From: Candidatus Peribacter sp.
Lineage (GTDB): Bacteria; Patescibacteriota; Gracilibacteria; Peribacterales; Peribacteraceae
NCBI GenBank assembly: GCA_030647195.1
Contig: JAUSKD010000014.1
Location: forward strand, 1 to 47,176
Length of the DNA: 47,176 bases
Direction: 5' to 3'
Made by a program: the position numbers and the translations under genes. Each line of letters begins with the position of its first letter. The stretch's first letter is position 1. This document shows, piece after piece, positions 19,520 to 19,920 of this stretch. The notes under the pieces were generated by a model that did no database searches, was not told where the DNA came from, and saw only the letters and a program-made list of their open reading frames with translations.

Positions 19520-19735
19520 TCAGGAAATGGGTGCATCACACACCAAAGCGACACGCTCACGCAGAGATGCCACGTAGTCTTGCGCTGCTGCTGGTTCCCC
19601 CGGTTTCGGAAGAACGCTGTAGCTGCCGTCCGCATGCGATTGAAGTTGGACAGTTGTGGGAACGTCATCCGGATGCTCGTAGGCGAGCGGATCATCGGGA
19701 CCGTTCCCGGTACGGATGGGAAGGATGTTACCCAT
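19520..19735 (-). CDS. Small hypothetical protein downstream of an attenuator-like leader
   Basis: 71 aa from ATG 19735 (MGNILPIRTGNGPDDPLAYE). Acidic and proline-containing, no membrane segment, ends CDAPIS. The family was not recognised. Support for it being real: the C/T-rich leader before the ATG (CTTTCCCCCTTTATCCC) is like those of other genes here, and a promoter plus structured leader with terminator lie directly upstream in the same direction. A longer frame to 19798 would start inside the terminator stem and is not favoured. Confidence 0.55.
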   Translation of the reverse strand: MGNILPIRTGNGPDDPLAYEHPDDVPTTVQLQSHADGSYSVLPKPGEPAAAQDYVASLRERVALVCDAPIS

Positions 19736-19760
19736 GGGATAAAGGGGGAAAGAAATAGAG

Positions 19761-19788
19761 AAAAAAACCCTCGCTTGTGAGCGAGGGC
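19761..19788 (-). terminator. Intrinsic terminator inside the leader of the 71-aa gene
   Basis: Minus strand stem CCCTCGCT (19787-19780) / AGCGAGGG (19775-19768), loop CACA, followed by seven T (19767-19761). It ends 25 bases before the start codon of the 71-aa gene. Confidence 0.88.
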
Positions 19789-19886
19789 TTATTCGCAAGT
19801 TGGGAAGATCTCTACGCCAACCTACGCCCTCGCAGCGAGTGCATCATCATATGCATCATGCCGAGGGCGGATTGCCGCAAAATCAC
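19761..19886 (-). ncRNA. Putative structured leader RNA / attenuator (or stand-alone sRNA), about 126 nt
   Basis: The RNA would run from the promoter at 19893-19920 to the terminator. In order: stem P1 CGAGGGC-type (GCCCTCG at 19868-19862 with CGAGGGC at 19832-19826), a short stem GTTGG/CCAAC, then the terminator. The P1 3' arm GCGAGGGC (19833-19826) is also perfectly complementary over 8 bases to GCCCTCGC (19788-19781), the 5' arm of the terminator. P1, this antiterminator and the terminator are therefore mutually exclusive, as expected for a transcription attenuator or riboswitch. No known riboswitch class was recognised. Confidence 0.6.
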
Positions 19887-19892
19887 GAGCAA

Positions 19893-19920
19893 AGTGTAGG
19901 ACACCTTTGACTGGTGTCAA
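19893..19920 (-). promoter_or_regulatory. Promoter of the leader RNA with an operator-like dyad
   Basis: TTGACA (19920-19915), 16 bases, TACACT (19898-19893). The spacer holds a dyad GACACC (19900-19905) / GGTGTC (19913-19918), placed where a repressor could block polymerase. Confidence 0.7.

Follow-up and report, generated by a model that had tools for sequence, protein, structure and literature searches.

A probable methionine-codon leader-peptide attenuator with a leaderless reading frame in Candidatus Peribacter and other Patescibacteria

The closest described systems are the enterobacterial trp, his and thr attenuators, in which a short translated leader is rich in codons of the regulated amino acid, one RNA arm is common to the terminator and the antiterminator, and the next gene belongs to the pathway of that amino acid; the locus described here resembles them in the first two respects, and its relatives resemble them in the third. 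Methionine genes elsewhere are controlled by SAM riboswitches, T-boxes and protein repressors, and the SAM riboswitches (S-box and others), which act on methionine biosynthesis genes through RNA, bind SAM itself with no part played by translation. To our knowledge, most CPR bacteria have not been cultured, and how they sense the amino-acid supply from their hosts is poorly understood. In Sinorhizobium meliloti, the attenuator RNA of trpL (rnTrpL/peTrpL) begins at the leader start codon, i.e. it is leaderless (PMC7298713). According to the part of a comparative survey drawn on here, the leader-peptide systems described by then came from Proteobacteria and Actinobacteria alone, to which the survey added Firmicutes (PMC2965389), and the part of an Actinobacteria survey drawn on here gives no conserved RNA structure ahead of the methionine operons (PMC1262725).

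Here we analyzed a leader on the minus strand of a Candidatus Peribacter sp. contig; the window denotes the whole stretch of DNA analyzed, 47,176 nt in length. The element is very probably a ribosome-mediated transcription attenuator specific for methionine (charged tRNA-Met), for which the support was computed from its parts, their covariation, the reading frame, the spacing, the folding states and the pathway match in relatives.

Parts of the leader and covariation of its stems

The features of the locus, all on the minus strand of the window, are as follows.
19893-19920, promoter read from the sequence, TTGACA (19920-19915), 16-nt spacer and TACACT (19898-19893)
19812-19886, leader ORF VILRQSALGMMHMMMHSLRGRRLA, 24 aa, with a predicted leaderless GTG start and the stop codon TAG at 19814-19812
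19862-19868, arm 1, GCCCTCG, the upstream arm of stem P1, which pairs with arm 2 when the ribosome is absent
19842-19859, putative control codons ATG ATG CAT ATG ATG ATG, assigned by how far the final Met codon stands from the switching arm
19826-19833, arm 2, GCGAGGGC, the switching arm, supported by antiterminator covariation
19794-19826, P2 hairpin, CGTAGGTTGG/CCAACTTGCG, with compensatory changes in 9 of 9 pairs
19781-19788, arm 3, GCCCTCGC, common to the antiterminator and the terminator
19761-19788, intrinsic terminator, made of arm 3, a loop, arm 4 (GCGAGGG, 19774-19768) and seven T (19767-19761)
19520-19735, the 71-aa gene of an MVNILPI-type small protein family, assigned by dN/dS, single copy number and linkage to the leader

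A sequence-only reading of this DNA had proposed the promoter, a structured leader, an intrinsic terminator 25 bases before a start codon, and an arm at 19833-19826 whose pairing with 19788-19781 excludes its alternative pairing. Direct inspection of the sequence confirmed the promoter at the coordinates above, the terminator (the ATG of the regulated gene, at 19735, lies 25 bases beyond the T-run) and the shared arm with its mutually exclusive pairings. The leader RNA is indeed structured, folding at -57.9 kcal/mol, well below its dinucleotide shuffles (-40.7 +/- 3.6 kcal/mol; z -4.8; 0 of 200 as good). Two parts had been overlooked, the 24-codon leader ORF and the P2 hairpin. P2, which separates the switching arm from the terminator, extends the antiterminator by stacking on it, with the stop codon of the leader peptide in its loop region, and arm 2 doubles as the coding sequence for leader-peptide residues 18-21.

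Two other proposals of that reading held only locally. Related promoters show no enrichment of the spacer dyad (p<=0.05 in 4 of 55, against 2.75 expected), and its role as an operator was rejected on this ground. The P1 stem is strong in the window, and significant there and in four genus relatives, but it is not conserved (significant in 11 of 60 related leaders), which excludes it as a defining part; P1 is therefore a local addition.

For comparison among relatives, we built a covariance model (R1) from nine copies of Met-type leaders, defined as having at least three Met codons beyond the start; at E<=0.1 it matched 49 of 74 family genomes. With a model rebuilt after aligning 43 matches (R2) and a threshold of E<=0.01, 131 of 353 class genomes had a match, the weakest matches including chance ones. 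Further leaders were sought by promoter pattern together with the covariance model, and several Met-type leaders were found outside the class in a sample of the phylum (L232, L237, L238, L240, L242). By these covariance searches, the element is present in many Peribacteria (CPR) and in some other Patescibacteria. The Met-type accounts for 63 of 78 tabulated leaders, a predominance that is partly by construction because R1 was built from Met-type leaders; the downstream genes are unaffected by this. Related leaders mostly keep both promoter boxes at the 16-nt spacing, with the start codon usually 6-8 nt past the -10 box, and the distance from the stop codon to the T-run is mostly 40-54 nt across the tabulated leaders. 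Two leaders stand in tandem before one downstream gene or operon at six loci (L048, L049, L059, L062, L068, L143).

Covariation among homologs had been set beforehand as the test of the attenuator claim, and both the antiterminator and the terminator stems covary. Over 85 leaders, pairing between arms 2 and 3 in the antiterminator helix reaches 96%, with 6 of 6 core pairs changing on both sides, and P2 is 75% paired, again with compensation at all nine pairs. Together, the antiterminator and P2 have 82.7% of cells paired in these leaders versus 40-51% with the partners slid, although the absolute values are inflated by the alignments having been fitted to the model; the terminator pairs, which lie outside the model, are formed in 84.6% versus 34-54% slid. 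The attenuator claim is thus strongly supported, as the arm common to the two structures covaries in both.

The leader peptide and the predicted switch

In the window as in the tabulated leaders, a short translatable ORF lies between the promoter and the terminator. GTG 19886 stands six bases past the -10 box, at the predicted first transcribed base, and five of the six codons in the control run are ATG. When relatives were searched at the DNA level, the leader turned up in the genus and in some family members, with the frame open in every copy. Two genomes carry an in-frame eight-codon insertion directly before the Met run, which fits the expectation for a translated sequence. The Met-rich core of the peptide is retained across families, and Met makes up 362 of 1548 non-start residues in the 63 Met-type leaders. 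In a pattern scan of the window's own genome and one congener, long genes also start 4-7 nt past such -10 boxes, so a leaderless start seems nothing unusual for this lineage. The promoter pattern is only modestly enriched versus its reversed control, and the leaderless claim is based on the long frames and conservation, not on pattern counts. The His codons of the leader (CAT, CAC) were considered as the signal and rejected: in related leaders the first is swapped for TCC, CAG, GGA or others and the second is often CGC, whereas the Met codons persist.

The spacing between the control codons and the RNA arms is regular. In the window and in most of 69 leaders, 11 nt separate the start of the last Met codon from arm 2; the stop codon mostly lies 19 or 22 nt beyond arm 2, and arm 3 about 25 nt beyond the stop codon. 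We folded the RNA with the bases under the ribosome hidden, assuming 12 nt ahead of the A site, which is the footprint of E. coli ribosomes. In the window, an A site on Met codons 9-14 gave 84-98% upstream pairing of arm 3 at the stage when arm 4 is not yet made; moving the A site to codon 16 lowered this upstream pairing to 0.05, and the values of 0.48 beyond codon 16 reflect a small local hairpin, not the antiterminator. Across the 69 leaders, an A site on the first Met codon gave a median arm 2-arm 3 pairing of 0.97, and one on the last Met codon a median of 0.81. The control codons are therefore placed, according to the masked folding, so that a stalled ribosome frees arm 2 and a terminating ribosome blocks it. 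With no ribosome, the window favours termination (arm 2-arm 3 pairing 0.007) and 47 of 69 leaders favour the antiterminator; thus, many relatives look default-on in these folds, with translation to the stop codon as their putative off signal, while the window's genus looks mixed.

We infer from these data the following course of events. Transcription would begin at or next to GTG 19886, and a ribosome would load on the leaderless 5' end, translate the ORF and trail the polymerase. If charged Met-tRNA runs short, the ribosome would wait on the Met codons (19859-19842), covering arm 1 and leaving arm 2 free, so that arm 2, P2 and arm 3 could form one long antiterminator before the 3' arm of the terminator is made; the polymerase would then continue into the 71-aa gene, giving the predicted read-through on Met limitation. 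When methionine is plentiful, the ribosome would reach the stop codon inside P2 and cover arm 2 and the 5' side of P2, upon which arm 3 would pair with arm 4 and transcription would end after about 126 nt. In the window copy, the strong P1 would likewise favour termination without a ribosome. Among the points against this model, Met starvation could lower initiation, which would favour termination in the window copy, and P1 supplies the default termination in the window yet is not conserved.

The same RNA geometry would suit any stall near the Met codons. We considered nascent-peptide arrest, in which the Met-rich peptide itself stalls the ribosome on a small molecule such as SAM or a ribosome inhibitor. 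In its favour, the Met run is followed by residues (H/R-S-x-R-G or T/S-P-L-R-G-G) that are alike within subgroups. However, these residues are explained by the sequence of arm 2, which changes together with arm 3, and the number and order of the Met codons vary widely. Moreover, the same scaffold bears Lys/Thr, Ser, Leu or aromatic codons in other leaders, with a fitting next gene for Lys/Thr and Ser (see below). We regard peptide arrest as unlikely, and charged tRNA-Met as the preferred signal.

Genes behind the leaders

A Pfam scan of the first gene behind 40 Met-type leaders (E<=0.01) gave matches for 18, among which 16 are Met/SAM enzymes. These are homoserine O-succinyltransferase (HTS/MetA PF04204; L142, 3.6e-121, and L135), a Cys/Met-metabolism PLP enzyme (Cys_Met_Meta_PP PF01053; L131, 4.6e-138), homocysteine S-methyltransferase (PF02574; L071, L125, L127, L128, L132, L138, L139, L152, L154, L160) and SAM hydroxide adenosyltransferase (SAM_HAT; L076 and L126, with L060 just below the curated cut-off); the other two are a methyltransferase (L049) and a cupin (L240). 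Many unmatched proteins fall in families that are profile-related to the SAM-hydrolase group (A7 to A5, 99.7%; A6 to A5, 96.7%), and profile A5 matches (R)-SAM hydrolase 22uy and 2f4n, with the caveat that A5 includes true members. As far as these annotations go, the next genes are independent evidence for methionine as the putative signal. A proline-rich protein (about 220 aa, MADQPTPPPPPRPGD...GGLDPTQVF...LTLLRGSISLTRDEKWRIIQAIPKLSQFQIDELQKIL) is conserved after the regulated gene in many Peribacteria, at loci including L052, L053, L055, L057, L060, L064, L066, L070 and L076.

Leaders with other codons occur as well, one of them in the window's own genome.
G000:C53:3036-3158, minus strand, Lys/Thr-rich leader L144, MQHCSSMKKTTKMTSLPGKDGC ending at a stop codon, ahead of an aspartokinase-like protein
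The protein behind L144 matches AA_kinase (1.4e-12) and ACT_9 (1.8e-12), and aspartokinase-like proteins with AA_kinase and ACT also follow the Lys/Thr-rich leaders L151 and L156. Three leaders are of the Ser/Cys type (L077, L146, L163), with a SerA-like protein behind L077, and a His-type leader (L080) precedes a DapF/GNAT-like protein. The genes next to the Leu/Val (L157, L158), Leu (L164), Tyr/Trp/Phe (L162) and Arg/Lys (L153) leaders had no recognised function.

The structured leader, the terminator and the mutually exclusive pairing would also be expected of a metabolite-binding riboswitch or a T-box-like tRNA sensor, and the sequence-only reading had called the leader riboswitch-like with its signal open. 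This was not borne out, as a translatable, Met-rich ORF makes up the leader and the pathway genes point to methionine. No Rfam 15 family, SAM riboswitches and T-box included, matched the window at the gathering score; the 5' half is a coding frame with no conserved aptamer; the covarying helices are limited to the antiterminator, P2 and the terminator; and one scaffold is common to several amino-acid codon types. A direct RNA sensor is very improbable. Least credible is a free-standing small gene with a conserved Met-rich product (e.g. a metal-binding peptide), a promoter of its own and the terminator as its 3' end, the next gene being transcribed separately: the next gene usually begins 20-40 nt past the T-run, a gap too small for another such promoter in most loci, the antiterminator covaries, which is needless for a plain 3' end, and the downstream genes fit the amino acid of the peptide.

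At the locus itself, the 71-aa ORF, an unknown gene in the sequence-only reading, is coding because dN/dS is 0.12-0.31 in five of seven pairs (the two more distant pairs have saturated synonymous sites and gave no estimate), and its linkage to the leader agrees with a real gene. Relatives occur in 12 of the 74 family genomes, each as a single copy located immediately after the leader, with one further weak profile match (E 0.005); the profile was made from leader-linked copies, and unlinked copies would still have been detected. The predicted fold is beta-beta-beta-beta-alpha (AlphaFold2 mean pLDDT 87.6), with no Pfam or PDB relative and no match below E 0.2 in a structure search of two libraries. 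In congener G004, a SAM-hydrolase-like gene, absent from the other four genus members, stands behind the same leader instead, and the window's own genome keeps a homocysteine S-methyltransferase elsewhere. Homology gives the 71-aa gene no link to methionine, and only its position suggests a role in methionine/SAM supply. A pyrimidine-rich tract (TCTTTCCCCCTTTATCCC, 19760-19736, minus strand) directly before its start codon is kept in several relatives and is possibly an initiation signal without a Shine-Dalgarno sequence.

The gene hisS was rejected as the primary target, as its proximity to the leader is confined to the window's genus and two close genera and a 230-nt gap with a palindrome precedes hisS. 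A perfect 32-bp palindrome (CCGTAGCTGGGGTTCATGAACCCCAGCTACGG, 19500-19469) lies between the 71-aa gene and hisS, and relatives have similar palindromes at the same place with no T-run. Directly before hisS is a 26-codon ORF (MAEPQFRTPIPLRSPLPRGAMAGSRW and a stop codon, 19392-19312, minus strand), whose start resembles the hisS start MSEPLFRTPKGTHD; in congener G003, hisS itself begins MAEPQFRTPKGTHD. The arrangement suggests an insertion or a duplication where hisS begins.

Comparison with described attenuators

We consider it rather probable that Patescibacteria use a widespread, undescribed set of leaderless attenuators built on one scaffold (Met, Lys/Thr, Ser/Cys, Leu/Val, aromatic and His), in which the Met type, apparently the first of its kind, is mostly default-on with no protector and controls a methionine/SAM-salvage regulon including divergent SAM-hydrolase-like families and a new family of ~70 aa. 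The leader sequence would then be a readable reporter of what each lineage senses, several orphan gene families would be tied to methionine/SAM metabolism, and leaderless small ORFs are predicted to be translated in CPR bacteria.

In our literature search, with most subscription papers and all preprints outside its scope, there was no Met-codon leader-peptide attenuator and none in CPR. The Actinobacteria and Firmicutes surveys likewise predicted leader-peptide attenuators outside Proteobacteria by comparative genomics, and the parts of them drawn on here make no mention of Patescibacteria (PMC1262725, PMC2965389). The S. meliloti trpL leader peptide is also leaderless and differs in responding to Trp, not Met, and in belonging to a different phylum; we claim no sequence relation. 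In contrast to the SAM riboswitches, the sensor here would be the translating ribosome, in keeping with the lack of an Rfam match. The element differs from the enterobacterial attenuators as follows: First, the amino acid is methionine. Second, the ORF is leaderless, without a Shine-Dalgarno sequence. Third, the control codons lie between arms 1 and 2. At last, an extra hairpin, P2, over the stop codon stacks on the antiterminator, and most members have no 1:2 protector stem. The mechanism is of a known kind; as far as we searched, what is new is the use of methionine, the CPR lineage and the scaffold, with its leaderless ORF, P2 over the stop codon and an optional protector.
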